From NCBI GenBank assembly GCA_947501105.1, contig CANMUP010000001.1, positions 124,001 to 188,000 of the forward strand: a DNA stretch of 64,000 nucleotides. The letters are read 5' to 3'. The position numbers and the translations under genes are program-made. A model generated the notes under the pieces. That model was not told where the DNA came from. It made no database searches and was given only the letters and a program-made list of their open reading frames with translations. Source of the DNA: an uncultured Flaviramulus sp. GTDB lineage: Bacteria > Bacteroidota > Bacteroidia > Flavobacteriales > Flavobacteriaceae. Shown piece after piece: positions 14,776 through 44,774 of the stretch (position 1 is the stretch's first letter; every line of letters starts with the position of its first letter).

Positions 14776-14873
14776 ATTGTAAAATTACGAAGTTTTGCGT
14801 TAGGGATTGAAACGACATCCTTTTTTTGAAAGATGAAAAACACATTTTATTTAGAACTAGAATTTAATAAATA

Positions 14874-14945
14874 GCTACGTCGTTTCTCCTCGCTATGACA
14901 AAAAAAGATATAGTGGAAAGCCCGACCCTTGTGGTAACGCCCAAA
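14874..14945. repeat. Two degenerate dispersed repeats between cupin and mgtE
   Basis: CTACGTCGTTTCTCCTCGCT followed by ATGAC (about 14874-14898) is an inverted relative of the CGTCATTGCGAG repeat. GGAAAGCCCGACCCTTGTGG followed by TAACGCCC (about 14915-14942) is, reverse-complemented, a relative of the GGGCGTT...GGCTTTC repeat at 37080-37160. Confidence 0.5.
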
Positions 14946-29862: not shown

Positions 29863-30870
29863 TTAATCTTCGTAAAACCTTGCTGCTTTTTCTAACTTTT
29901 GTTTCATTCGCTTTCTCAATCGTTCAGGTTTAATAACTTCAATGGAGTCTCCAAAACCTAAAATCATACGTTCCAATTCAAAATTGATTTGCACAAAAAT
30001 ATTGAATACAATACCGTTGTCTGTCTTTTTTATAATTCTCTGAGAGCTGTGAAAAGGTTTAGTTATTACATAAGGTGCATTGTGTCTGTCTACCCTAAAT
30101 TGGATACGTTCTGCTCGGATATTTGAAACCGTTACTCCAATAACGTCTTTATAAAAAGTGTCTCCATTAAAATTCTCATCTAAATAAGGAATAGATGTAT
30201 CGTAGTCCATTTTTATAATCCTATCTAGAGCAAAAGTTAAAACAGGTTTTTTTGTGGACGTTTTACCAACTAAAAACCAGCGATTATTAAACTCTTTTAG
30301 AATAAATGGATGGAATATTATCTCTGAAGGGTTACGTGCTTTAAATGATTGGTATGTAATGCGTAGCACAATTTTTTTGATAATAGCTTGATATAAAACA
30401 TCTAAATGTTCTAATCCTTTTAGTTTTTCGTTCTTATCCAAATGGATGATAGCGGACTGATGTGTCTTTTCTGTATAAACCTTATCCTCTAAACGTTGTA
30501 TAATACCTCCTAGTTCTGAGAACAAAGAAAAATCTTTAAACTGTTTTAGCATTTCAACAGTTTCAGAAAGCACATTCATGTCGTTTTCATTTAGCGGAAT
30601 ATTCGTTATAGAATAGTCTTCGTCTTCGTATTTATAGAACTTCTTATCGTATACAACTATTGGAGCGTTATATCCTAGTTTGTCACTACGCATCATTTGA
30701 ATATCTAGTTGAACAGTACGTTTACTAACATTAACTTCTCTTCCTTCATATTCATAAAGTGTATCAGAACACGCTTCAATTAAATCATCTAAAGTCCATT
30801 GTCGATAGTTATTTTGCAGACATTTATCAATGGTTTTATATCTGATTAGTGCATTTTTGTTTAAAGCCAT
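29863..30870 (-). CDS. WYL-domain transcriptional regulator of the RNA-repair island
   Basis: Started at 30870 (MALNKNALIRYKTIDKC) the protein has 335 residues; the frame is open for 204 more bases but the operator and promoter lie there. It has an N-terminal helix-turn-helix (about 1-75), then a WYL domain (about 140-225; IIFHPFILKEFNNRWFLVG) and a C-terminal WCX-like part. WYL domains bind nucleic-acid or nucleotide ligands and such regulators often control DNA or RNA damage and defence genes. It is divergent from the DUF6331-rtcB operon, with the inverted repeat 30909-30927 between them. Confidence 0.87.
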   Translation of the reverse strand: MALNKNALIRYKTIDKCLQNNYRQWTLDDLIEACSDTLYEYEGREVNVSKRTVQLDIQMMRSDKLGYNAPIVVYDKKFYKYEDEDYSITNIPLNENDMNVLSETVEMLKQFKDFSLFSELGGIIQRLEDKVYTEKTHQSAIIHLDKNEKLKGLEHLDVLYQAIIKKIVLRITYQSFKARNPSEIIFHPFILKEFNNRWFLVGKTSTKKPVLTFALDRIIKMDYDTSIPYLDENFNGDTFYKDVIGVTVSNIRAERIQFRVDRHNAPYVITKPFHSSQRIIKKTDNGIVFNIFVQINFELERMILGFGDSIEVIKPERLRKRMKQKLEKAARFYED

Positions 30871-30908: not shown

Positions 30909-30927
30909 TACGCAAAATCATTGCGCA
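30909..30927. promoter_or_regulatory. WYL-regulon operator, copy A
   Basis: TACGCAAAATCATTGCGCA is an imperfect inverted repeat in the divergent gap between the WYL gene and DUF6331-rtcB. The same site occurs at 38411-38429 and 41649-41667. In all three, exactly 11 bases separate the repeat from a TATTTG box (here 30939-30944). The common spacing argues for a real operator-promoter unit. Confidence 0.75.
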
Positions 30928-30987
30928 CATAGATGAAATATTTGTATCGGAATTATAAATAAGTCTTTTAAAAGGCTTTAAAGCAAT

Positions 30988-31015
30988 ACTCCGTCGAACG
31001 AAGAGTCGGCGGAGT
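30988..31015 (+). promoter_or_regulatory. Leader hairpin before DUF6331-rtcB
   Basis: ACTCCGTCG and CGGCGGAGT pair over 9 bp (one GU) around a 10-base loop, 13 bases before the start codon. Few T follow it, so it is more likely an RNA-stability or attenuation structure, or a copy of a dispersed hairpin repeat, than a full terminator. Confidence 0.5.
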
Positions 31016-31028
31016 TTAAAAAAGAGCA

Positions 31029-33364
<2,336 letters not shown>

Positions 33365-34566: not shown

Positions 34567-34642
34567 TAATTCTTTTTTCTGATTTGAAAAATGTGAGTTT
34601 AAAGCTAAATATCAGCCTAACAAATAGTTATAAAAGATAACT

Positions 34643-34762
34643 ATTATCCGTATAACACGGACAGGAATTCTATTGTCTAAATTTAACATAACAAACTGAT
34701 TATCAGTAAAATAAATTTAAATTTTTCTTGTGAAATTTAAAAAAGGGTTATAGGTTTGCACC
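34643..34762 (+). promoter_or_regulatory. Conserved promoter block upstream of the RtcB2-PrfH operon (copy 1)
   Basis: This block of about 118 bp is repeated with high identity at 38770-38887. It contains the inverted repeat TCCGT-ATAAC-ACGGA (34647-34661), a TGATTATCA palindrome, and a promoter with TTG (34728-34730), 20 bases, and TAGGTTTG (34751-34758), a full match to the flavobacterial consensus. It drives the leader ORF 34798-34881. Confidence 0.8.
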
Positions 34763-34953: not shown

Positions 34954-35700
34954 GTGTACACAAAAGAGTTTCAGAGGCACATTAAAAAAATAAAACAATG
35001 GCAGTTGAAACCAAAACACATAAAACAGCAAAGAGAAAAAGAGATACGCCAAATTTATAAACGGTGGAGAGAAATAGTAACAGAAAATAAGGCACTAGGC
35101 TATATAAAATTAGTAAAACCTGTTCGTCACGGTTGGTTTAAAGAAATTATAATTACTCACAAAGTAGAACGCTACAAGAACAAAGCAGCTATTTTAGAAG
35201 TATATGATAAAGTTGAAAAACGCTTTTGGGGAAGAACCAAAGAAGAAGCCAATGAACATTGGTTTCAACAAACCTCAAAGTATTTCATTTATAAAGATTT
35301 TCCAACCATAAGCAAAAAACAGTTTAACAAGCTAAGTTTTAAAGCACAATGCATGTGCACACCATTCTATTATAAAACTGAACGCAAAAAACAAAAGCTT
35401 AGATTCTATATAAAAATTCCAAAAGGAGCTTATAGAGTTAAATATACAAGAGCTTATGTAACACATTCCAAGCGGATTGATCCTGCATTAGAACGCGAAG
35501 ATGCATTGTTAGACCAACAGCTTTTAAAATCTGGTTATTATAATCTTGCTCAAAAAAGATGGAGTTGGAGACATCGCCACTATTGGAATAAGTTGGTGCA
35601 CAAAAAAGAAAAGCAAAAAACAAAAGTAAATCTCAATGCTCTAAAAGCAATTAGTATTGAAGATATTATAAACGAAAACATATTATGGGAAATAAACTAA
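34954..35700 (+). CDS. Unknown basic protein before rtcB2
   Basis: The 248-residue protein starts with GTG (MYTKEFQRHIKKIKQW); no in-frame ATG fits better. It is very basic and rich in aromatic residues (KQRW, RFWGRT, HWFQQTSKYF, WSWRHRHYWNKLVHKK), with a long Lys/Arg/Trp pattern suggesting binding to RNA or the ribosome. I do not recognise a family. It follows the leader terminator directly and its end overlaps the rtcB2 start by 16 bases, so it is translated with the ligase. Confidence 0.7.
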   Translation: MYTKEFQRHIKKIKQWQLKPKHIKQQREKEIRQIYKRWREIVTENKALGYIKLVKPVRHGWFKEIIITHKVERYKNKAAILEVYDKVEKRFWGRTKEEANEHWFQQTSKYFIYKDFPTISKKQFNKLSFKAQCMCTPFYYKTERKKQKLRFYIKIPKGAYRVKYTRAYVTHSKRIDPALEREDALLDQQLLKSGYYNLAQKRWSWRHRHYWNKLVHKKEKQKTKVNLNALKAISIEDIINENILWEIN

Positions 35701-37076
35701 AAGGGAAAGACTTAATAAAATTAGGCTTCCCTAAAAATAACAGTATCAATATTGCTTTAGGGCAAATCAATCGATACCGAAAAAGAGAAAAGAAAGAGCG
35801 AATCTTGGAAGAAGCAAAAGAAGTATTACTTAATCCAGAAAAGTTTCAAGGTAATGCCATTTGGGGAAAAGTAGCAGAAGGTTTAGTGAAACCCGTTGAA
35901 GTTAAGTTTCATAAACTAAAAAATACTAGAGCACCTTTTACCATTTATGGCGAGAATGAAATTGATGAACAAGCGAAATATCAGTTATATGATGCTTTAA
36001 AATTACCAATAGCTGTTGCTGGAGCTTTAATGCCAGATGCACATGTAGGTTATGGCTTACCAATTGGTGGTGTTTTAGCAACAGAAAATGCAGTAATCCC
36101 TTATGGTGTTGGTGTAGATATTGGCTGTAGAATGTGTTTAACAATCTACCCAATAAAAGCATCTTACCTAAAAGGAAAACAGCATCAACTGGAGAATATC
36201 TTGTCTAATCATACCAAATTTGGAATGTATGAAACACATGATAAAAAACATGATCATGAGGTTTTTGACAGACAAGAGTTTCAAGATATTCCTTTGTTAA
36301 GAAGGCTAAAAATAAAAGCTTTCAAACAATTAGGAACCTCAGGAGGAGGCAATCATTTTGTGGAATTTGGAAAAGTGACAATTACAGATATTAATAATGA
36401 ATGGAATCTAAATGTAGGCGAATATATCGGAATATTATCACATAGTGGTTCAAGAGGATTAGGTGCAAACATTGCAAAACATTACACCTATTTGGCAACG
36501 AAACAATGTCCATTACCTAAAAATGTTCAGCACTTAGCTTGGTTAGATTTAAACACACATGATGGACAAGAATATTGGTTGGCAATGAATTTAGCTGGCG
36601 ATTACGCCAAGGCATGTCATGATGATATTCATTATCGCATAGGCAAATTATTAGGCGTTAAAGCAGTAGCAAAAATTGAGAATCATCACAATTTTGCTTG
36701 GAAGGAAACTATAAACGGTACAGCATGTATTGTACATCGTAAAGGAGCAACACCAGCTTCAAGAGGTGAACTAGGAATTATACCTGGGTCTATGACTGCG
36801 CCAGGGTTTATTGTTAGAGGCTTAGGGAATACCGAGAGTTTAAACTCAGCGTCTCATGGAGCAGGACGTTTACACTCACGTAGAAAGTGCAAAGAAAAAT
36901 TCACTAAAAGTGATGTAAAAAAGCAATTAATAATGCATGACGTGACCCTTATTGGCGGAGGTATAGATGAAGCACCAATGGCTTATAAGGACATTAAAAA
37001 AGTAATGAATAATCAGCAAGAATTGGTAGAAGTTTTAGGAACTTTTACACCAAAAATTGTAAGAATGGATAAATAG
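35685..37076 (+). CDS. rtcB: RtcB-family RNA ligase, paralogue 2
   Basis: The 463-residue ligase has all motifs in standard form: MPDAHVGYGLPIGGV, GVDIGCRM (metal-binding Cys), GGGNHFVEFG, SHSGSRGLG, ENHHNFAW and the guanylated His in SHGAGRLHSR. It pairs with the PrfH gene 94 bases downstream, a combination known as the RtcB2-PrfH module, in which PrfH frees ribosomes cut in the 16S decoding centre and RtcB reseals the rRNA. It is distinct from paralogue 1 in sequence. Confidence 0.94.
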   Translation: MGNKLKGKDLIKLGFPKNNSINIALGQINRYRKREKKERILEEAKEVLLNPEKFQGNAIWGKVAEGLVKPVEVKFHKLKNTRAPFTIYGENEIDEQAKYQLYDALKLPIAVAGALMPDAHVGYGLPIGGVLATENAVIPYGVGVDIGCRMCLTIYPIKASYLKGKQHQLENILSNHTKFGMYETHDKKHDHEVFDRQEFQDIPLLRRLKIKAFKQLGTSGGGNHFVEFGKVTITDINNEWNLNVGEYIGILSHSGSRGLGANIAKHYTYLATKQCPLPKNVQHLAWLDLNTHDGQEYWLAMNLAGDYAKACHDDIHYRIGKLLGVKAVAKIENHHNFAWKETINGTACIVHRKGATPASRGELGIIPGSMTAPGFIVRGLGNTESLNSASHGAGRLHSRRKCKEKFTKSDVKKQLIMHDVTLIGGGIDEAPMAYKDIKKVMNNQQELVEVLGTFTPKIVRMDK

Positions 37077-37170: not shown

Positions 37171-37860
37171 ATGAAAACAATACAAATAACATCAGGTAGA
37201 GGGCCTATTGAATGTTGCTGGGTTGTAGCTCAAGTTTTAAAGCATCTCATTAATGATATAAAAGAAGCTAAAATAAAATATATGCTTTTGCAAAGAGAAC
37301 TTGGTGTAGAAAACGGAACGTTACAATCTGCAACAATTCAATTGCAAGGAAAAGAGTTGGAATCTTTTTTAAGCAATTGGTTGGGTACTGTGCAATGGAT
37401 AGGGAAATCGTCATTTCGAAAATTTCATAAGCGTAAAAACTGGTTTATAGGCATCTATGAAATTGAAGCAACAGAAGAAACACTTTTAAATGAAAACGAC
37501 ATAACATTTCAAGCCATAAGAAGCTCAGGAGCAGGAGGCCAACATGTCAATAAAGTAAGTTCAGCCATTAGAGCAACGCATACAAAAACGGGTATACAAG
37601 TTTTGGTGATGGATAGCAGATCGCAACATCAAAATAAAAAAATAGCTATAAAACGATTACAGGAAAAAGTAGCAGAATTTAATACTGAACAATTAAAAGC
37701 ATCGGTTCAAAATCAATGGGGAAATCATCTTAATTTAGAAAGAGGGAACCCAGTACGTGTTTTTAAAGGACCCGATTTTAAAACACAGAAAGCAACTAAA
37801 GACTATAAGTCTAAACGACAAGAATTAAAAAACAATTTAAGACAACAAAAATGGGATTAA
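37171..37860 (+). CDS. prfH: Release-factor-like protein PrfH
   Basis: The 229-residue protein is a class I release-factor relative with the peptidyl-tRNA hydrolysis motif SGAGGQHVNKVSSAIRATH (GGQ at about 125-127) and the basic C-terminal stretch of RF domain 3. It lacks the stop-codon recognition domain and is far shorter than RF1 or RF2 (about 360). PrfH acts on ribosomes with a damaged decoding centre and is found with RtcB2. Its stop region overlaps the next gene start by 10 bases. Confidence 0.9.
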   Translation: MKTIQITSGRGPIECCWVVAQVLKHLINDIKEAKIKYMLLQRELGVENGTLQSATIQLQGKELESFLSNWLGTVQWIGKSSFRKFHKRKNWFIGIYEIEATEETLLNENDITFQAIRSSGAGGQHVNKVSSAIRATHTKTGIQVLVMDSRSQHQNKKIAIKRLQEKVAEFNTEQLKASVQNQWGNHLNLERGNPVRVFKGPDFKTQKATKDYKSKRQELKNNLRQQKWD

Positions 37861-38410: not shown

Positions 38411-38429
38411 TACGTAAAAACAATGCGTA
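38411..38429. promoter_or_regulatory. WYL-regulon operator, copy B
   Basis: TACGTAAAAACAATGCGTA matches operators A and C and lies 11 bases before TATTTG (38441-38446), the same spacing. It precedes the 39-residue leader ORF and the tRNA array. Confidence 0.75.
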
Positions 38430-38671: not shown

Positions 38672-38769
38672 ATGAATTTTTTTAAAAATAAAATGAAAAG
38701 TTAAGCAAGCATAAAAAATAGCAAATAATTGATAAACAACAGGGAGACAGACTATTGTAAAAAATGACG

Positions 38770-38887
38770 ATTATCCGTAAAAAACGGACAGGGATTATAT
38801 TGTCTAAAATCAACATAACTATTTGATTATCAATAAATTAAATTAAAAATTTTCTTGTGTAATTCAAAAAAGGGTTTCATATTTGCA
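38770..38887 (+). promoter_or_regulatory. Conserved promoter block upstream of the tRNA array (copy 2)
   Basis: Second copy of the block at 34643-34762: inverted repeat TCCGT-AAAAA-ACGGA (38774-38788), TTGTCTAAA, a TGATTATCA palindrome, TTG (38855-38857), 20 bases, and CATATTTG (38878-38885). It drives the 41-residue leader ORF and, on read-through, the tRNA array. Confidence 0.8.
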
Positions 38888-39120: not shown

Positions 39121-39193
39121 TGACGTGTAGCTTAGTTGGTAGAGCAAGGTACTTTTAATGCCGAGGTCGTGAGTTCGATCCTCACCGCGTCAA
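39121..39193 (+). tRNA. tRNA-Lys (TTT), array position 1
   Basis: Acceptor TGACGTG/CGCGTCA, loop CTTTTAA, T arm GTGAG TTCGATC CTCAC. The top anticodon-stem pair (27-43) is a mismatch. Confidence 0.88.
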
Positions 39194-39199
39194 CAAAAC

Positions 39200-39341
39200 G
39201 GAAGGGCAATCAGATAGGTGACTGAAGCAATCTTGAAATGAGTTAGCGAATTCAACGAAATTGATTAAACAAATTATTAACGCTTGAGTTAAAATTGTTG
39301 AGTTTTAATAGGCCTTGTGAGTTCGATTCCCTCTCCTTCCG
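39200..39341 (+). tRNA. tRNA-Ser (TGA) interrupted in the anticodon loop, array position 2
   Basis: Acceptor GGAAGGG/TCCTTCC; anticodon stem GCAAT (39227-39231) pairs with ATTGT (39294-39298), loop CTTGAAA (39232-39238). A 55-nt insert (39239-39293) sits at the 3' side of the loop; without it the tRNA is 87 nt, the normal length for Ser with its long variable arm. The insert begins and ends with TGAGTTA. The T stem is weak (3 of 5 pairs). Confidence 0.75.
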
Positions 39342-39346
39342 CAAAA

Positions 39347-39419
39347 CTAAGAGGATAACGATGGATAGTTTACTCGCCTTGGACGCGAGAGGTTGCAGGT
39401 TCGAATCCTGTCTCTTAGA
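39347..39419 (+). tRNA. tRNA-Pro (TGG), array position 3
   Basis: Acceptor CTAAGAG/CTCTTAG, anticodon stem CTCGC/GCGAG with loop CTTGGAC, T arm GCAGG TTCGAAT CCTGT. The D arm is weak. A degenerate relative is at 41787-41859. Confidence 0.85.
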
Positions 39420-39435
39420 CAGGACGGAACGTTAA

Positions 39436-39458
39436 AAAAATGTCTAGTAGACATTTTT
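39436..39458 (+). other. 10-bp hairpin in the spacer between Pro and Ser tRNAs
   Basis: AAAAATGTCT-AGT-AGACATTTTT is a perfect hairpin that could act as a processing or termination signal. The following bases 39468-39491 (GCCAGATGGCGTGGTGGAAT) resemble the 5' end of a tRNA-Leu, possibly a broken tRNA; no matching 3' half is evident. Confidence 0.4.
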
Positions 39459-39507
39459 AGTGAACGTGCCAGATGGCGTGGTGGAATAAACCATCAAAGA
39501 CATATAT

Positions 39508-39594
39508 GGAGAGTAGGTAAATACTGGTTTGTTACGCTTGCCTGCTAAGCAAGTCCGCCATATGGCGGTGAAGGTTCAATTCCTTTGCTCTCCG
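39508..39594 (+). tRNA. tRNA-Ser (GCT), array position 4
   Basis: Acceptor GGAGAGT/GCTCTCC, anticodon stem CTTGC/GCAAG with loop CTGCTAA, variable arm CCGCC-ATAT-GGCGG. 87 nt, complete. Confidence 0.92.
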
Positions 39595-39602
39595 CAATAA
39601 TT

Positions 39603-39675
39603 GGGGATGTAGTTTACCTAGCTAAAACGGCACATTTGCAATGTGCAGAACGGAGTGCAAGTCTCCGCGACTCCA
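39603..39675 (+). tRNA. tRNA-Ala (TGC), array position 5
   Basis: Anticodon stem GCACA/TGTGC with loop TTTGCAA; T arm CGGAG/CTCCG with an unusual loop TGCAAGT lacking the TTC. Acceptor GGGGATG/CGACTCC has one mismatch. Confidence 0.85.
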
Positions 39676-39682
39676 CAATAAA

Positions 39683-39754
39683 GATACTGTAGCTCAAAGG
39701 TAGAGCAGTTGGTTGTTAACCATCAGGTTATAGGTTCGAATCCTATTGGTATCA
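39683..39754 (+). tRNA. tRNA-Asn (GTT), array position 6
   Basis: Acceptor GATACTG/TGGTATC; loop TTGTTAA; T arm ATAGG TTCGAAT CCTAT. The anticodon stem has one T-T mismatch. Confidence 0.88.
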
Positions 39755-39763
39755 CAAAAAAAA

Positions 39764-39836
39764 GACAAGGTGGCTGAATGGTTAAAGCATTGGTCTGCAA
39801 CACCAATTTTTATGAGTTCGACTCTCATCCTTGTCT
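39764..39836 (+). tRNA. tRNA-Cys (GCA), array position 7
   Basis: Acceptor GACAAGG/CCTTGTC, anticodon stem TTGGT/ACCAA with loop CTGCAAC, T arm TGAG TTCGACT CTCA. Complete. Confidence 0.92.
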
Positions 39837-39844
39837 CAAATTAT

Positions 39845-39927
39845 GGAAGTGTTGAGCAATTGGTTGGCTCGCCAGACTGTAAATCTGGTCTCTTTTGAGC
39901 TTGTAGGTTCGAGTCCTACTACTTCCA
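39845..39927 (+). tRNA. tRNA-Tyr (GTA), array position 8
   Basis: Class II tRNA: acceptor GGAAGTG/TACTTCC, anticodon stem CCAGA/TCTGG with loop CTGTAAA, variable arm, T arm GTAGG TTCGAGT CCTAC. Confidence 0.93.
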
Positions 39928-39933
39928 CATCAA

Positions 39934-40055
39934 ACATCTATGGTGTAAAGGATAGTACTAAAGATTTAGCTCACTCATTTTATTTTAAATGAAGGTGTTC
40001 GTGAATGCAAAGCATTTCTAATCTTTCAGTCTAAGTTCGAATCTTAGTAGATGTA
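39934..40055 (+). tRNA. tRNA-Arg (TCT) interrupted in the anticodon loop, array position 9
   Basis: Acceptor ACATCTA/TAGATGT (7 perfect pairs), T arm CTAAG TTCGAAT CTTAG, anticodon stem AAAGA (39960-39964)/TCTTT (40022-40026). Removing 50 nt (39968-40017, or 39965-40014 because TTT is at both ends) restores the loop TTTCTAA and a 72-nt tRNA. The insert starts TTTAGCTCAC and ends in a 22-nt motif (39997-40018) also found, inverted, in position 12. Confidence 0.8.
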
Positions 40056-40062
40056 CAAAAAT

Positions 40063-40134
40063 GGTTCATTGGGGTAATGGCTATCCTTCCCGACTGTCTC
40101 TTGGGAGATACGAGTTCGATTCTCGTATGAACCG
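40063..40134 (+). tRNA. tRNA-Asp (GTC), array position 10
   Basis: Acceptor GGTTCAT/ATGAACC, anticodon stem CCCGA/TTGGG with loop CTGTCTC, T arm ACGAG TTCGATT CTCGT. Confidence 0.9.
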
Positions 40135-40141
40135 CAAAAAT

Positions 40142-40213
40142 GCTCTATTAGCATAATGGTTAGTGCATCCGGCTTTCTACCGGAAGACAAGGGTTCGATT
40201 CCCTTATAGAGTA
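40142..40213 (+). tRNA. tRNA-Glu (TTC), array position 11
   Basis: Acceptor GCTCTAT/ATAGAGT, anticodon stem TCCGG/CCGGA with loop CTTTCTA, T arm AAGGG TTCGATT CCCTT. Complete. Confidence 0.93.
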
Positions 40214-40218
40214 CAAAT

Positions 40219-40343
40219 TGAGGTATAGCTCAGTGGAAGAGCTTCACGCTTACATCGTGAAAGTCACAGGTTCGAAATGCTTCGCATTCACGAACTCGTA
40301 TGAAAAGAAAATAGGATAATGTGAGCTAACCCTATTACCTCAA
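40219..40343 (+). tRNA. tRNA-Val (TAC) interrupted in the T loop, array position 12
   Basis: Acceptor TGAGGTA/TACCTCA, anticodon stem TCACG/CGTGA with loop CTTACAT. T stem ACAGG (40266-40270) pairs 4 of 5 with CCTAT (40331-40335), but 60 nt instead of 7 lie between them. Bases 40274-40295 and 40321-40329 are the reverse complement of the two ends of the insert in position 9. Removing about 53 nt gives 72 nt. Confidence 0.75.
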
Positions 40344-40348
40344 CATTT

Positions 40349-40421
40349 TGAGATGTAGCTTAAACGGTAGAGCACCGCCCTCATAAGGCGGATTGTTCAG
40401 GTTCGATTCCTGGCATCTCAA
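40349..40421 (+). tRNA. tRNA-Met (CAT), array position 13
   Basis: Acceptor TGAGATG/CATCTCA, anticodon stem CCGCC/GGCGG with loop CTCATAA, T arm TCAGG TTCGATT CCTGG. Elongator, initiator or lysidine-Ile type cannot be decided by eye. Confidence 0.9.
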
Positions 40422-40426
40422 CAAAA

Positions 40427-40500
40427 GCAGGAATGGCGAAATTGGTATACGCTCTTGTTTTAGAAACAAGGTTTTGAGAGTTCGAGTCTCTCTTCCTGTA
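40427..40500 (+). tRNA. tRNA-Leu (TAG), array position 14
   Basis: Acceptor GCAGGAA/TTCCTGT, anticodon stem CTTGT/ACAAG with loop TTTAGAA, T arm GAGAG TTCGAGT CTCTC. The variable region is unusually short for Leu (74 nt in all). Confidence 0.85.
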
Positions 40501-40505
40501 CTTAT

Positions 40506-40620
40506 GCTTCGCTGGCCAAACTGGAAAAGTTATCGCGTAAAAACATTGTTTTTACAAAGATACCGAACGAAGTTCCATTTTAAGCGTTGTGATTTCTTGG
40601 TTCGAATCCAAGGCGAAGTA
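40506..40620 (+). tRNA. Interrupted tRNA of uncertain identity, array position 15
   Basis: The acceptor GCTTCGC/GCGAAGT and T arm CTTGG TTCGAAT CCAAG are perfect, but 115 nt lie in the gene. The central part holds a hairpin GTAAAAA-CATTG-TTTTTAC and then GAAC-GAA-GTTC, so an insert of about 30-42 nt is likely. Depending on how it is removed the anticodon may be TTT (Lys) or another; I leave it open. Confidence 0.6.
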
Positions 40621-40625
40621 CAAAT

Positions 40626-40698
40626 AAGCTTATGGTGTAATTGGATAACACTCCAGAATACGACTCTGGGAATACGGGTTCGAATCCTGTTAGGCTTA
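40626..40698 (+). tRNA. tRNA-Arg (ACG), array position 16
   Basis: Acceptor AAGCTTA/TAGGCTT (one GT pair), D stem GTGT/ACAC, anticodon stem CCAGA/TCTGG with loop ATACGAC, T arm ACGGG TTCGAAT CCTGT. Confidence 0.9.
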
Positions 40699-40704
40699 CA
40701 AATT

Positions 40705-40775
40705 TAATCTGTGATGTAAAGGAAGCATACAGGAATTTGACTCCTGAAGTATAGGTTCGAGTCCTATCGGATTAA
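40705..40775 (+). tRNA. tRNA-Gln (TTG), array position 17
   Basis: Acceptor TAATCTG/CGGATTA, anticodon stem CAGGA/TCCTG with loop ATTTGAC, T arm ATAGG TTCGAGT CCTAT. The D arm is short. Confidence 0.88.
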
Positions 40776-40781
40776 CAAAAT

Positions 40782-40854
40782 TGTGATATAGCTTAATTGG
40801 TAAAGCGCTCACCTGATACGTGAGTAGATGAAAGTTCGACTCTTTCTGTCACAA
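40782..40854 (+). tRNA. tRNA-Ile (GAT), array position 18
   Basis: Acceptor TGTGATA/TGTCACA, anticodon stem CTCAC/GTGAG with loop CTGATAC, T arm GAAAG TTCGACT CTTTC. Confidence 0.92.
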
Positions 40855-40860
40855 CAAAAT

Positions 40861-40932
40861 GGTGGCTTTAGTTTATGTGGCAAAATACCTCACTGTGAAT
40901 GAGGAAAATAGGGTTCGAATCCCAAAGTCACC
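40861..40932 (+). tRNA. tRNA-His (GTG), array position 19
   Basis: Encoded G at -1, acceptor GTGGCTT/AAGTCAC with C73, anticodon stem CCTCA/TGAGG with loop CTGTGAA. The T stem is weak at its base. Confidence 0.85.
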
Positions 40933-40939
40933 CAAAAAA

Positions 40940-41012
40940 GGAACAATAGCAAAGCAGGTCTATGCGTCGGGTTGAAGCTCCGAAGATACTGGTTCAAGTC
41001 CAGTTTGTTCCT
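40940..41012 (+). tRNA. tRNA-Phe (GAA), array position 20
   Basis: Acceptor GGAACAA/TTGTTCC, anticodon stem TCGGG/TCCGA with loop TTGAAGC, T arm CTGG TTCAAGT CCAG. Last tRNA before the YkuK gene, 33 bases away. Confidence 0.88.
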
Positions 41013-41045
41013 CAGTATAAATGTTTAAGTAAAAAATGAGTAATC

Positions 41046-41531
41046 ATGAAAATTGCACAACAAAAATGGAGGAATTTTAGTGGTAAAATGTTTAATCTAC
41101 CTATTACAGATATTATAGAAAATGCCATTATAAAAGAACAAAAGGCAGGGCACCGCCTAAAGGTTTGTGTAGGTTCAGATTCTCAAGCGTATAAATCTCA
41201 CATAGAGTATGCAACTGTAATTGTTGTACTTCGAGAAGGAAAAGGTGGTTTTATGTTTATGACAAACTACAGCGGCACAAAACACATTGGTATTAAAGAA
41301 CGTATGCTTAAAGAGGTAACAATGTCTGTTGAAACAGCATATAGCGTGTGTCATATTTTAGATGAATATAATGTTGAACTGGAAGTGCATGTCGATATTA
41401 ATACAAATCCTAAGTTTGAATCTAATGTGGCTCTTAAAGATGCAATGAGCTATATTTTGGGAATGGGCTTTGTTTTTAAGGCTAAACCTTATGCTTTTGC
41501 AAGTTCGTCATGCGCAGATAAGGTGGTGTAA
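41046..41531 (+). CDS. RNase H-like YkuK-family protein
   Basis: The 161-residue protein matches the YkuK (DUF458) family with a predicted RNase H-like fold: an acidic strand VCVGSDSQAYKSHIEYATVIVV with the first Asp, a central ERMLKEVTMSVETAY helix, and EVHVDINTNPKFESN with further acidic residues. Members are thought to be nucleases, with no settled substrate. It directly follows the tRNA array and probably shares its transcript, so a role in tRNA maturation, turnover or insert removal is possible but unproven. Confidence 0.78.
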   Translation: MKIAQQKWRNFSGKMFNLPITDIIENAIIKEQKAGHRLKVCVGSDSQAYKSHIEYATVIVVLREGKGGFMFMTNYSGTKHIGIKERMLKEVTMSVETAYSVCHILDEYNVELEVHVDINTNPKFESNVALKDAMSYILGMGFVFKAKPYAFASSSCADKVV

Positions 41532-41543
41532 AGTACTTCCCTG

Positions 41544-41614
41544 AGGAATAGATCCCTGTTCCTAGTTAATGAATTCTGCTGGGTTTTACTTTAGTTCAAG
41601 ATCTGGCAGAATTC
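41544..41614 (+). other. Two hairpins after the YkuK gene
   Basis: AGGAA/TTCCT (41544-41563) and the strong GAATTCTGC/GCAGAATTC stem (41571-41614). Neither has a T run. The second contains CTGGCAGA, also found in the hairpin at 41734-41759, so they may be copies of one structured element. Confidence 0.5.
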
Positions 41615-41648
41615 TAAATTAAAAGGATTTGAATAAAATAATTTTTAA

Positions 41649-41667
41649 TACGCAAAAACATTGCGTA
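41649..41667. promoter_or_regulatory. WYL-regulon operator, copy C
   Basis: TACGCAAAAACATTGCGTA, with TATTTG at 41679-41684, 11 bases on. The following bases also match copy A (TATTTGTA, then AATTA and AATAAGT at the same spacing), so A and C are near-identical promoters. No protein gene follows; the transcript would carry a hairpin and two tRNA-like sequences. Confidence 0.72.
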
Positions 41668-41733
41668 ATAGCATAAAATATTTGTAGAGTAATTAGCAAT
41701 AAGTTTTTTGGAACCAGACTTTGCAAGTAGCGT

Positions 41734-41759
41734 TCTGCCAGACCATAGAAACTGGCAGA
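41734..41759 (+). other. Leader hairpin after operator C
   Basis: TCTGCCAG/CTGGCAGA, 8 perfect pairs with a 10-base loop, about 50 bases after the expected transcription start of promoter C. Confidence 0.55.
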
Positions 41760-41786
41760 GCATAATAAAATATTCTAAATATTATC

Positions 41787-41859
41787 TGAGAAGATAACAA
41801 TTAGTTATTTACTCACCTTGGTCGTGAGAGTTTGTAGATTCTATTCCTGTTTGTTTCAT
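41787..41859 (+). pseudogene. Degenerate tRNA-Pro-like sequence
   Basis: The anticodon arm CTCAC CTTGGTC GTGAG (TGG) and the preceding AGTTATTTA are clearly related to the array tRNA-Pro at 39347, but the T arm (TGTAG ATTCTAT TCCTG) and acceptor are poor. Either a decayed copy or a tRNA-shaped RNA from promoter C. Confidence 0.6.
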
Positions 41860-41866
41860 AATTTAG

Positions 41867-41938
41867 GGGAATAGTTTAATGTATAAAATTTTGTGATACA
41901 ACCCAATGATGCGAGTTCGAATCTTGCTATTCCTACCA
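41867..41938 (+). tRNA. tRNA-like sequence with encoded CCA, anticodon unclear
   Basis: Acceptor GGGAATA/TATTCCT followed by A and CCA, T arm GCGAG TTCGAAT CTTGC are good. The anticodon arm region (TTTTGTGATACAACCC) does not form a normal 5-bp stem, so the identity is unclear and it may be a pseudogene or a decoy-like RNA. It is the only tRNA here with CCA in the DNA. Between it and 42078 nothing else is seen. Confidence 0.5.
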
Positions 41939-42077
41939 AATTTAATAATTAACTAATAATAAGGGGACAATACCAAAATATAGTTAGAGCAAGTTAGTTT
42001 ATAAATTATCTAGTCAATTCAAAAGTTATTCTGTAAAAAACGTGTAAATAGATTTGGTTAGTATAGACTTAATTATA

Positions 42078-44774
42078 TTATTTCGATTTTGAATAAACCA
42101 ACCCTTCAACATTATTCTTTTTAACTGGCAATAATAAACTAAATACATAGCCTCCTATAACGCAAACAGGAATAGCAATTAGCGGATAAATATAGAAGTT
42201 AATTGGAGTATTGTACTTCACAAAAGCCAACACCAAAATACTTAGTAATGCTCCAATTAAAGTGCCTTTCCAATTTGATTTTTTTACAAAAATCCCAAGC
42301 ATAAACACACCTGCAATAGCGCTACCAAAAAGACCCACAATTTCTTGGAATAAGAAAAATAAAGATTGAACTGGAAATGTTGCCATAATACAGGCAACAA
42401 CAGTTCCTAAAACCCCAACAATAACCGTAGTCAATTTAGCTAGTTTTAAACCACTGGCTTCAGTATACGATTTGTAAAAACGCTTATAAAAATCTACAGT
42501 TACAACAGTAGAAACACTATGCATACTACTATCTAAACTTGACATTGATGCTGAAAAAATGCCTGCGATTACTAAACCTGCAATTCCTGGAGGTAAATGA
42601 TTAGTAATAAATAAAGGGAACACGCCATCATTTTTCATCCCAACCGATAAAAACTCTGGATGTTCTTTAAAATATACATATAAAAATGCCCCCATAGTGA
42701 ATATTAGTAAGCCAGATGGGATTGCAATTATGCCATTAAGCCAAATGCTTTTTCGGGCTTCTTTCTCACTAGATGTTGTCATATACCTTTGCACAACGGC
42801 TTGATCTGTTGTATATGGTGCAAAATTAGCAGCAAAAGTTCCAAGGAATAATGACCATGTAACGACTTCAGTTAAACTAAATCTAAAATCTAACATTTGC
42901 ATTTTTCCATCATTGTAGGCAGTTTCAAAAATATACCCAACATCTCCAATTTCAATAGCAATAAAAATCAAACCAATTAAAAGCCCTCCCATCAATACTA
43001 TAACCTGTACAACATCAGTCCAAATAACGGCTTCCATTCCTCCCATATAAGTGTACAAAATTGCAAGTATTCCCATTATGATAATGGCCAAATAAATATC
43101 TATACCCACTACTGTAGCAATTGCTAGTGCTGGAAGATATACTACAATACCCATTCTTGCAAGTTGAAATAATACGAATGATATACTACCAAACATTCTA
43201 ACTGTAATATTGAAGCGTTTTTCGAGATACTCATAGGCTGTAGTAACTTTTAGCTTTCTAAAGAATGGTAAATAGAAAGACACAACAATTGGTACAATTA
43301 AAAGTATAGTGAAATAACCTAAAAACACTTGCCAATCAAAAGCATACGCTAAAGCTGGGTGTGCTAAATAAGTAATAGCACTAAGCATGGTGGCATAAAT
43401 ACTTAAGCCTGCTGCCCACCAAGGAATTCTTCCTCCGCCAAGGAAATAATCATTTGTAGTTTTATTTTTTCTTGAAAAATACCACCCCATCCAAATCATT
43501 ACTATTAAGTAAGCGATAAGTGTCATATAATTTAACCAACCAAAACTTGCCTTTTGGGGCTTTTGAGTAGCCATTGTTATTGTGTTTGTTCTAACTCCTG
43601 GCTGTATTTCTCCACCAGGAATAACAATAGCATCACCCCATTTAATAGCGTTAGTAACAACTTGAGTTTTATCAGGAAGTTGCCCCTTATTACTCCAAGT
43701 GTCAGTAATTGTATGATATGCCCAAATGGTTTTGGAAAAACATGTGCTTTTAAACAACTGTTTTTCTACCCTTGATAGTGAATCAACTATAGCTAAGCTT
43801 TGCTCCGTTAAGCTGTCACTTATTTTTAAGGCTTTTATTTTATTCCAAAGTTTCATTCTAGCAGCAAGGTGTTGCTTCTCGCCTCCTGCGCCTCCGTAAA
43901 TAATGATATGTGATGCTCCCATTTTGATAGCTGGAGCTGCCGCTATATATCCTTTCTCTATTCCTGGGGTATGGTTATTGGGAACTGGGTTTTTTTGAAT
44001 CCAAGATTCTTTCTTTGTATCATACTCATAAACATCTGATAGCATTTTATGAGTTTTTTTTGATTCTGGGTTATAGCTTAAACCACTGAAAACATATAGA
44101 GATTCGTAATTCCTTCCATTTCCTTGTCCAACAACAACTGCTTGCAATCTATTTTCACCAGGGAAATCTTGAAGTCGCTGCCAAGTATATTGTTTTCGGT
44201 TTAAGGTTTCAGTCAAATTAAATGATAAAAAGTTAGAAGTTGCTGCTGCTCCTTTTATTTCTTGTCCTCCCACCAAATACACCATGTCTCCAATAATACT
44301 ACCTCCCATACTCGACAAAGCAATAGGCATTGGAGGTAAATCTTCTCGCTCTATCGTTTTGCTTTTTGGATTCCATTTTAACAAGAATACATCGTTATAA
44401 ACGCCATCTTCATTATCCCCACCGATACACAACAATCCTTTTGGTGTTGAAATAGATACGCCGTAGGCTAAACTTTTAGGTAATTTCAAATCATCATTTT
44501 GAATCCATTGCAAAGAATCTTTGCTCTTCTCTAATACATAAATTGAATTTTGCCATACTTTTTTTCCACCTTCCCAAACTGGTTCGTTTGGGAAATTAGC
44601 CCCACCAGCGATTATTAAAGCGTTATTATGGATTCCTGTGAACGAACCATTAAGTCCAATTTTATTAGGAATACTTTGAGGTGTTGACCAGTCAAATATT
44701 TCAGTTATTTTTTGAGCTTGGATTACTAAAACACAACAAAAGCTAAGTAAGAATGTATAAAAGTATTTTATCAT
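42078..44774 (-). CDS. Sialic acid mutarotase fused to an SSS-family sodium symporter
   Basis: This 898-residue protein joins two functions. Residues about 1-390 are a signal peptide and a Kelch beta-propeller like N-acetylneuraminate epimerase NanM/YjhT (GIHNNALIIAGGANFPNEPVWEGG; several VYLVGG-type blades). Residues about 400-890 are a sodium:solute symporter with 13-14 membrane segments (NDYFLGGGRIPWWAAGLSIYATMLSAITY). The propeller would sit in the periplasm and interconvert alpha and beta sialic acid for uptake by the linked symporter. Last gene of the six-gene minus-strand operon that starts at 50915. Confidence 0.87.
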   Translation of the reverse strand: MIKYFYTFLLSFCCVLVIQAQKITEIFDWSTPQSIPNKIGLNGSFTGIHNNALIIAGGANFPNEPVWEGGKKVWQNSIYVLEKSKDSLQWIQNDDLKLPKSLAYGVSISTPKGLLCIGGDNEDGVYNDVFLLKWNPKSKTIEREDLPPMPIALSSMGGSIIGDMVYLVGGQEIKGAAATSNFLSFNLTETLNRKQYTWQRLQDFPGENRLQAVVVGQGNGRNYESLYVFSGLSYNPESKKTHKMLSDVYEYDTKKESWIQKNPVPNNHTPGIEKGYIAAAPAIKMGASHIIIYGGAGGEKQHLAARMKLWNKIKALKISDSLTEQSLAIVDSLSRVEKQLFKSTCFSKTIWAYHTITDTWSNKGQLPDKTQVVTNAIKWGDAIVIPGGEIQPGVRTNTITMATQKPQKASFGWLNYMTLIAYLIVMIWMGWYFSRKNKTTNDYFLGGGRIPWWAAGLSIYATMLSAITYLAHPALAYAFDWQVFLGYFTILLIVPIVVSFYLPFFRKLKVTTAYEYLEKRFNITVRMFGSISFVLFQLARMGIVVYLPALAIATVVGIDIYLAIIIMGILAILYTYMGGMEAVIWTDVVQVIVLMGGLLIGLIFIAIEIGDVGYIFETAYNDGKMQMLDFRFSLTEVVTWSLFLGTFAANFAPYTTDQAVVQRYMTTSSEKEARKSIWLNGIIAIPSGLLIFTMGAFLYVYFKEHPEFLSVGMKNDGVFPLFITNHLPPGIAGLVIAGIFSASMSSLDSSMHSVSTVVTVDFYKRFYKSYTEASGLKLAKLTTVIVGVLGTVVACIMATFPVQSLFFLFQEIVGLFGSAIAGVFMLGIFVKKSNWKGTLIGALLSILVLAFVKYNTPINFYIYPLIAIPVCVIGGYVFSLLLPVKKNNVEGLVYSKSK

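Follow-up and report, generated by a model that had tools for sequence, protein, structure and literature searches.

Operator C in a flavobacterial RNA-repair island probably heads the remnant of a stable-RNA unit

The sequence behind operator C in the RNA-repair island of an uncultured Flaviramulus sp. is probably the remnant of a stable-RNA unit, a reading to which we give a probability of roughly three in four. Its island combines RNA-repair genes and a tRNA array with a WYL regulator; the switch of the unit appears intact, and the tRNA-Pro and tRNA-Arg behind it appear to be decaying. Hereafter, the window denotes the whole stretch analysed, 64,000 nucleotides of contig CANMUP010000001.1 (assembly GCA_947501105.1, positions 124,001 to 188,000). 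The original prediction, made from these letters, was that operator C drives a non-coding transcript with tRNA-like parts. The window copy seems mostly a fossil, and it leads to a conserved arrangement in sister islands: operators of a single family precede RtcB, PrfH-linked tRNA arrays, a Y-RNA-like permuted tRNA module that neighbours slipin and, in four of the islands, GOLLD. Comparison of these islands supports the view that an operator shared with RtcB precedes non-coding RNA with conserved tRNA-like folds.

Results

The RNA-repair island occupies about 29.9 to 41.96 kb of the window, and its genes follow the order WYL regulator, DUF6331 protein, RtcB1, marker protein, RtcB2, PrfH, TPR-like protein, tRNA array and RNase H-like protein (PF04308). 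The WYL-domain regulator (29863-30870, minus strand; Pfam WYL and WCX above cut-off) is divergent from operator A (30909-30927), which lies in front of the RtcB1 operon; operator A and the other genes, operators, leader elements and tRNA-like pieces of the island described below are on the plus strand. Both RtcB1 (31334-32710) and RtcB2 (35685-37073) match Pfam RtcB, and RtcB2 adjoins the release factor PrfH (37171-37857, TIGR03072 above cut-off). Operator B (38411-38429) precedes a small ORF located 5' of the tRNA array (39121-41013), which holds 16 tRNAs called by ARAGORN and several tRNA-like genes with inserts. Operator C lies downstream of the RNase H-like gene (41046-41528, Pfam match). 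The marker protein belongs to no Pfam family, and the TPR-like protein stays below the Pfam cut-offs.

Operators A, B and C are three copies of one palindrome. With at most two mismatches, the 4.19-Mb genome contains these three sites and a fourth at C4:307732; when three mismatches are allowed, 21 matches are found, compared with 20 for the reversed control. The additional site (positions 1501-1519 of locus L006, genome G000) has two mismatches and lies outside the island. From the gene neighbourhood and the conservation of the operators, the WYL regulator is the candidate binder of all three.

Several other elements were noticed in the window. A direct repeat of 174 nt (34587-34760 and 38714-38887, 76% identical) lies upstream of short ORFs, and a Flavo-1 RNA scores above the gathering score at 14792-14931. 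Two more tRNA-like stretches with large inserts, at 39201-39342 and 40502-40622, received no ARAGORN call. An insert roughly 60 nt long recurs in similar form in tRNA genes of the window (39929-40055 and 40220-40344) and of the loci L024 (14772), L038 (18544), L031 (12470), L053 (16466) and L054 (16084). When located in the anticodon region, it carries TTAGCTCAC and GTTCGTGAATGC..GCATTTC, whereas the copies in T-loops resemble that sequence reversed and complemented. Judged by eye, a single small element seems to have inserted in both orientations.

Operator C, TACGCAAAAACATTGCGTA, was found with its promoter at the predicted site, 41649-41667. Promoters of Bacteroidetes consist of a -33 and a -7 element. 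The TTG of the -33 region (41661-41663) is contained in the 3' arm of operator C, and the TTTG of the -7 element follows at 41681-41684, a sequence kept in the sister units. Transcription would be expected to start around 41690. Since operator C holds the -33 TTG and is followed by the -7 TTTG, a bound protein should block the polymerase.

Behind the promoter, the predicted hairpin GTTCTGCCAG/CTGGCAGAGC is present, with its arms at 41732-41741 and 41752-41761. Together with a preceding GTAG motif it forms the leader hairpin P2 (41725-41762). Two elements can be added to the original prediction, a stem P1 (AAGTTT/AGACTT, 41701-41706 and 41716-41721, with one G-U pair) and a degenerate, A/T-rich boxA-like tail (41767-41783), which reads AAAATATTCTAAATATT in the window compared with AAAAGTTCTTTAAAATATT in L048. 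As predicted, no protein gene follows, the longest plus-strand ORF starting within 41690-42080 having 29 codons. A search of 41500-42120 revealed no terminator-like site. When 41691-41938 is folded as a single sequence, the hairpin forms and two separate cloverleafs do not. The hairpin covariance model, whose training set includes the window row, gives the window copy 43.4 bits (E 5e-10 over 845 kb). A hairpin of the same family is located at 30981-31016 in the leader of the predicted RtcB1 transcript, with 37.0 bits for model R2, of which it is a training row.

Compared with the consensus of nine sister units, the window operator agrees in 18 of 19 columns (own range of the sisters, 15-19), and the promoter (23/26), P1 (23/28) and P2 (26/32) likewise fall within the range of the sisters. 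By this alignment the operator, promoter and leader hairpin of the window are not decayed. A simply dead unit should have decayed there too, and their integrity within the sister range therefore counts against one. The boxA tail agrees in 14 of 20 columns; six sisters do better (18/21 to 19/20), and L052, L053 and L054 do worse.

A second hairpin, GAATTCTGCTGG..TCTGGCAGAATTC, lies at 41571-41615, downstream of the RNase H-like gene and ahead of operator C. It has TCTGGCAGA in common with the leader hairpin and is perhaps an old copy or a terminator.

The sister islands were collected through the marker protein, which matched in 11 of the 397 genomes of the family, two of these matches being weak, and gave 40 named loci. 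From 102 operator matches, we picked 23 C-type units by eye, representing 21 sources; L018-L021 were taken as the same as L023, L027, L046 and L060 and not counted twice. At all nine loci where the RNase H-like gene was found, the window included, the C-type operator lies 30-1115 nt downstream of it, with a small ORF coming first in L024. A fuller C unit consists of the operator, the hairpin, often an rRNA-type boxA, and then intact tRNAs and/or large structured RNAs. Intact tRNA-Tyr and/or tRNA-Pro follow the leader in L028, L030, L037, L048 and L053.

Using 22 leaders, 14 from C-type units and eight from RtcB1-type (A) units, we examined the covariation of the leader hairpin. All 220 cells are paired, and nine of the ten pairs have changed on both sides. 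The covariation score is 0.753, compared with 0.368 for shuffled and at most 0.18 for slid alignments. Two measures are weaker: 15 of 500 shuffles reached the observed count of two-sided pair changes, and 188 of 500 the observed count of pair types. Nine of the 23 C leaders (two each of L029 and L038, and those of L033, L040, L042, L050 at 10646, and L059) were left out of the alignment, their hairpin being different, shorter or missing. Among the RtcB1 genes, all 18 that could be assessed have an operator within 600 nt upstream, L032 and L036 at the locus edge being excluded from this count. The hairpin heads eight of these 18 RtcB1 leaders; the other ten are without this form and were left out of the alignment. 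It was also seen before RNA modules inside other units (L050 at 11823, L024 at 16940, L121 at 9780 and L126 at 10141).

A further element of the C units is a boxA pattern, GTTC[AT]TT[AGT]A, within 420 nt of the operator. It is present in 16/23 C units and 0/18 RtcB1 units, with 0.047 occurrences expected per 400 nt; examples in sister units are AAAAGTTCTTTAAAATATT and AAAGTTCATTGAAATAA. We found no 16S rRNA in the own genome, so the comparison with ribosomal leaders was made in relatives, where the same element precedes the 16S rRNA in 13 of 20 cases by the strict and in 17 of 20 by a looser pattern. We take it to be an rRNA-type antitermination signal. The pattern of the rRNA leaders of the family is not present in the window copy, where the boxA-like tail resembles a broken boxA. 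Apart from the window copy, six sister C units are without the pattern, among them L053, L057 and L060, which have RNAs downstream. Hence, the absence of boxA alone is weak evidence of decay.

These data bear on whether a transcription unit is present at all. An operator-like palindrome might lie by chance beside unrelated tRNA debris, since the site at C4:307732 shows that an equally close match with two mismatches exists outside the island. However, this explanation sits badly with the constant position behind the RNase H-like gene, with the covarying leader hairpin and with a boxA in most C units, and we consider it highly improbable.

Downstream of the leader, the window contains two tRNA-like pieces. 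The first (41786-41858) is, as the original prediction had it, a degenerate tRNA-Pro-like sequence; it aligns with the tRNA-Pro(TGG) of sister units and arrays, from which it differs by 15 substitutions and a 2-nt insertion. Thirteen of the 15 substitutions are GC to AT and none is AT to GC. The second (41865-41938) is 85% identical to the island tRNA-Arg(ACG) of L023, its 3' half being identical. At 41865-41935 it matches the Rfam tRNA family with 35.3 bits (gathering score 29), and the encoded CCA follows directly at 41936-41938. That CCA had been predicted correctly, whereas the statement that a normal anticodon stem is missing has to be amended, as a stem with four of five pairs and one mismatch exists. 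The encoded CCA looks accidental, since the discriminator base is followed by CCA in none of the 16 tRNAs of the array and by CA in 15 of them. The Pro-like piece gave no Rfam match at E<=1, and a scan of 41530-42080 at the same threshold returned only the tRNA at 41865-41935 and neither YrlA (RF02553) nor GOLLD. ARAGORN called neither piece, and neither combines a score above the Rfam cut-off with an ARAGORN call.

A functional tRNA has an intact anticodon arm, a TTCRA T-loop and GG in the D-loop, a set that neither window piece retains. In the Pro-like piece, the T-loop has become TTCTA instead of TTCGA, the D-loop reads AG instead of GG, and the G53-C61 pair is now an A53-C61 mismatch. Its anticodon stem keeps all five pairs, one of them by a change from G-C to A-T on both sides, together with the TGG loop. 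The Arg-like piece has GT in the D-loop, the mismatch in its anticodon stem and, after a 1-nt deletion, an anticodon loop of 6 nt. When neutral change was simulated with the same substitutions, a mean of 14.8 of 20 pairs survived for the Pro-like piece, which keeps 17 (P=0.114; the ancestor was a consensus typed by eye), and a mean of 16.9 of 21 for the Arg-like piece, which keeps 19 (P=0.113). The kept pairs are above the neutral mean without being significant, so that weak constraint may still act on both pieces. Among 22 sister units, each read over 760 nt, no such pair of Pro-like and Arg-like pieces was seen. Alignment and neutral simulation support best that the two are decayed copies of the island tRNAs Pro(TGG) and Arg(ACG), one of the options that the original prediction had offered.

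It had also suggested that the window RNA could be a decoy or sensor for anticodon nucleases or RtcB. With the positions for tertiary contacts lost, pairing no better than chance and the pair missing from the sister units read, this idea finds no support in the window copy; we rejected it as the best reading once the neutral simulation had been run and the pieces had been aligned with intact tRNAs of the islands. In its more general form, the transcript would be a functional short tRNA mimic that serves as a decoy for anticodon nucleases or is bound by RtcB or by the WYL protein, its tRNA bodies reflecting remodelling and not decay. Such a mimic would account for the intact operator, promoter and hairpin and for the kept anticodon stem and loop of the Pro-like piece. 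Moreover, conserved tRNA-like RNAs are encoded in the sister islands, and competitive inhibition of an anticodon nuclease is raised as a possibility for Salmonella YrlA in the passages considered of PMC7790460. However, the retention of pairs does not exceed the neutral expectation, the substitutions of the Pro-like piece are strongly biased, both bodies have lost typical features, a single-sequence fold is without the two cloverleafs, and the sister units read hold no such pair. We regard a functional mimic in the window as unlikely.

The leader itself might be all that matters: operator C would then yield a short hairpin RNA or act as an additional site to titrate the WYL protein, with neutral filler behind the hairpin. 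An intact operator and hairpin in front of decayed tRNAs would agree with this, as would the hairpin at the head of RtcB1 transcripts and before RNA modules in L050, L024, L121 and L126. In contrast, no stand-alone leader was seen in the sister units read, and no terminator-like site was seen within 41500-42120 of the window. This explanation appears decidedly unlikely to us, and a decaying remnant of a stable-RNA unit remains the preferred one.

Behind the C leaders of the sister islands we found three types of conserved non-coding blocks, type I in 8, type II in 16 and type III in 4 of 41 sources. None of the three, nor a slipin gene, is present in the window. From synteny, rather than from a scar, we infer that the window unit has lost the Y-RNA-like RNA and slipin. 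Type I, located at 16493-16698 in L060 and found in seven other loci, is a tRNA-like RNA (CCTCTTTAGC..AAGAGGTAC) that carries a conserved insertion some 130 nt long; its copies in L050 and L052 match no Rfam family at the gathering score.

Some C units have a different content. Those of L029 (14659-16452), L027 (18009-19799), L033, L038 and L059 contain tRNAs with an insert ending in GTTCCTAT, as well as further GTTCCTAT stretches. The same units encode a conserved protein of 592-598 aa, the frame of which is broken in L040. It has no Pfam match (L019 copy) and no NCBIfam match (L029 copy), and the AlphaFold2 model of the 598-aa form, with a mean pLDDT of 40.5, is unusable. The gene that follows in L029, L033, L038 and L059 presumably encodes an exonuclease, judging from its start.

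Type II contains a circularly permuted tRNA-like module in all 16 sequences. The order of its parts is half of the anticodon stem, a variable part, the T-arm, a closed acceptor hairpin, the D-arm and the other half of the anticodon stem. The module covaries: 95.8% of the cells are paired, two-sided changes are seen in 14 of its 21 pairs, and the score is 0.498, compared with 0.189 for shuffled alignments. The Rfam model of YrlA lands on the modules of L048, L049, L050 and L052 with 27.6-41 bits. Its gathering score is 69, and none of these sister units reaches it. In the own genome, no match of the module exceeds 28.4 bits. Across the family, matches at E<=1e-8 occur in 118/397 genomes, a count that is probably too high, as the model also picks up junctions of tandem tRNAs, with up to 46 bits in known loci; at least 60 bits are reached in 33/397 genomes among the matches listed.

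A slipin gene follows the permuted module in 32 of 34 loci (15/17, 16/16 and 1/1). The exceptions are L038, where the locus ends too early, and L062, which has RlaP next. For the set of 16, 16 of 20 listed module loci were fetched, and G079 gave the single further locus; G177 is the contig of L021/L060, and G362 and G336 were left out. Conserved structure in related islands, for which the original prediction had suggested a covariance search, exists for the leader hairpin and for the permuted, slipin-linked RNA; a counterpart of the Pro/Arg pair of the window was not seen in the sister units read.

A partnership with Ro60 was considered and is unlikely to be the rule. TROVE (Ro60) was found in one of 20 module-bearing genomes, G079, about 2.6 kb downstream and behind an operator of its own with three mismatches; the other 19 genomes tested and the own genome gave no match. 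A functional tRNA arising from the permuted module by circularisation through RtcB was considered too. By eye, no conserved U33 follows the half anticodon stem, which makes the module likelier a mimic than a functional tRNA. In the type II RNAs of L024, L048, L060 and others, the permuted module is followed by a second T-arm, acceptor hairpin and D-arm. One or two complete anticodon arms come next, and their anticodons vary (CAT, TTT, GAA and CAA, as read by eye). These arms could display anticodons to nucleases, and it is possible that the tRNA-like RNAs of the sister islands act as decoys.

Type III is a divergent GOLLD (RF02032) located beside the tRNA array in the C units of L049, L050, L052 and L054. 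The matches are full-length with E<=1e-30, and their 117, 121.3, 121.5 and 135.3 bits are below the gathering score of 150. A search with nhmmer using L052 suggests that, among 16 further loci, L121, L125 and L130 also contain GOLLD.

Discussion

Overall, our data point to a conserved type of unit of which the window holds a decaying copy. Operator C would be the third operator of the WYL-associated RNA-repair and tRNA-array island, and the fuller unit of related Flavobacteriaceae would comprise operator, promoter, structured leader, often a boxA, tRNAs or large RNAs including the Y-RNA-like module, and slipin. We propose that the WYL protein covers the -33 region and keeps the promoter shut. 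RNA damage or translation stress may provide the signal that releases the C promoter together with the RtcB1 operon, and antitermination at boxA would then allow the polymerase to make a long untranslated RNA. The fuller unit might supply spare tRNAs as well as an RNA that mimics tRNA and helps in repair. In the genome studied here, the switch would yield at most a short, probably non-functional RNA.

A more far-reaching alternative is that the C-type units form the RNA arm of a WYL-controlled regulon. Multi-headed tRNA mimics, in some cases with GOLLD, would be co-induced with RtcB and slipin and serve as decoys or scaffolds in the handling of damaged tRNAs, and the short RNA of the window, a reduced form with an intact hairpin and parts derived from tRNAs, would still take part. 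Each mimic would combine a permuted body that is open at the anticodon stem with a second body bearing complete anticodon arms. As a whole, we consider this reading rather unlikely, and we retain the remnant as our explanation of the window. Because the operator family stands before GOLLD and Y-RNA-like RNAs, these RNAs gain an RNA-repair setting with a candidate switch, and their roles could be tested in culturable marine bacteria. Flavivirga amylovorans (L024), Winogradskyella undariae (L048) and Lacinutrix algicola (L030) are cultured relatives that carry the fuller unit. Among the titles and abstract openings searched, none was found to describe this combination, and reviews on RNA repair may contain an earlier description.

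Several known systems share parts of this arrangement. The PrfH (RFH)-RtcB systems of PMC6514570 resemble the island in combining PrfH, RtcB and a TPR protein, and a nucleotidyltransferase-like gene is found in sister islands. Unlike here, the main text of that article does not contain the term 'tRNA genes', and the passages considered name no non-coding RNA.

In Anabaena, the trn operon is under the control of the repressor TrcR, according to PMC10272220. As in our islands, an array of extra tRNAs, rtcB and slipin are involved, and there a single repressor is released by translation stress. TrcR is described there as a ribbon-helix-helix protein, whereas the candidate regulator here is a WYL protein; the terms WYL, GOLLD, Y RNA and YrlA do not occur in PMC10272220. 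The sister islands share tRNA array, rtcB, slipin and common operators as gene content, and a TrcR-like regulon may be supposed by analogy.

The rsr-yrlBA-rtcBA locus of Salmonella, as presented in PMC7790460, likewise joins RtcB to non-coding RNAs, one of which has a tRNA-like domain. There the components are co-expressed. The activator is RtcR in Salmonella, where a WYL protein is the candidate here, and Ro60 takes part there, where slipin is the usual neighbour here. Unlike YrlA (RF02553), the permuted module of the sister islands is followed by a second tRNA-like module and scores below the gathering score.

GOLLD is described as an RNA of unknown function in the passages considered of PMC12286853. 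The GOLLD of the sister islands adjoins a tRNA array, as does the one in a mycobacterial tRNA cluster according to the relevant parts of PMC6582537. Unlike the known GOLLD RNAs in the portions of these two articles considered, it scores below the gathering score and lies behind the operator of an RNA-repair island.
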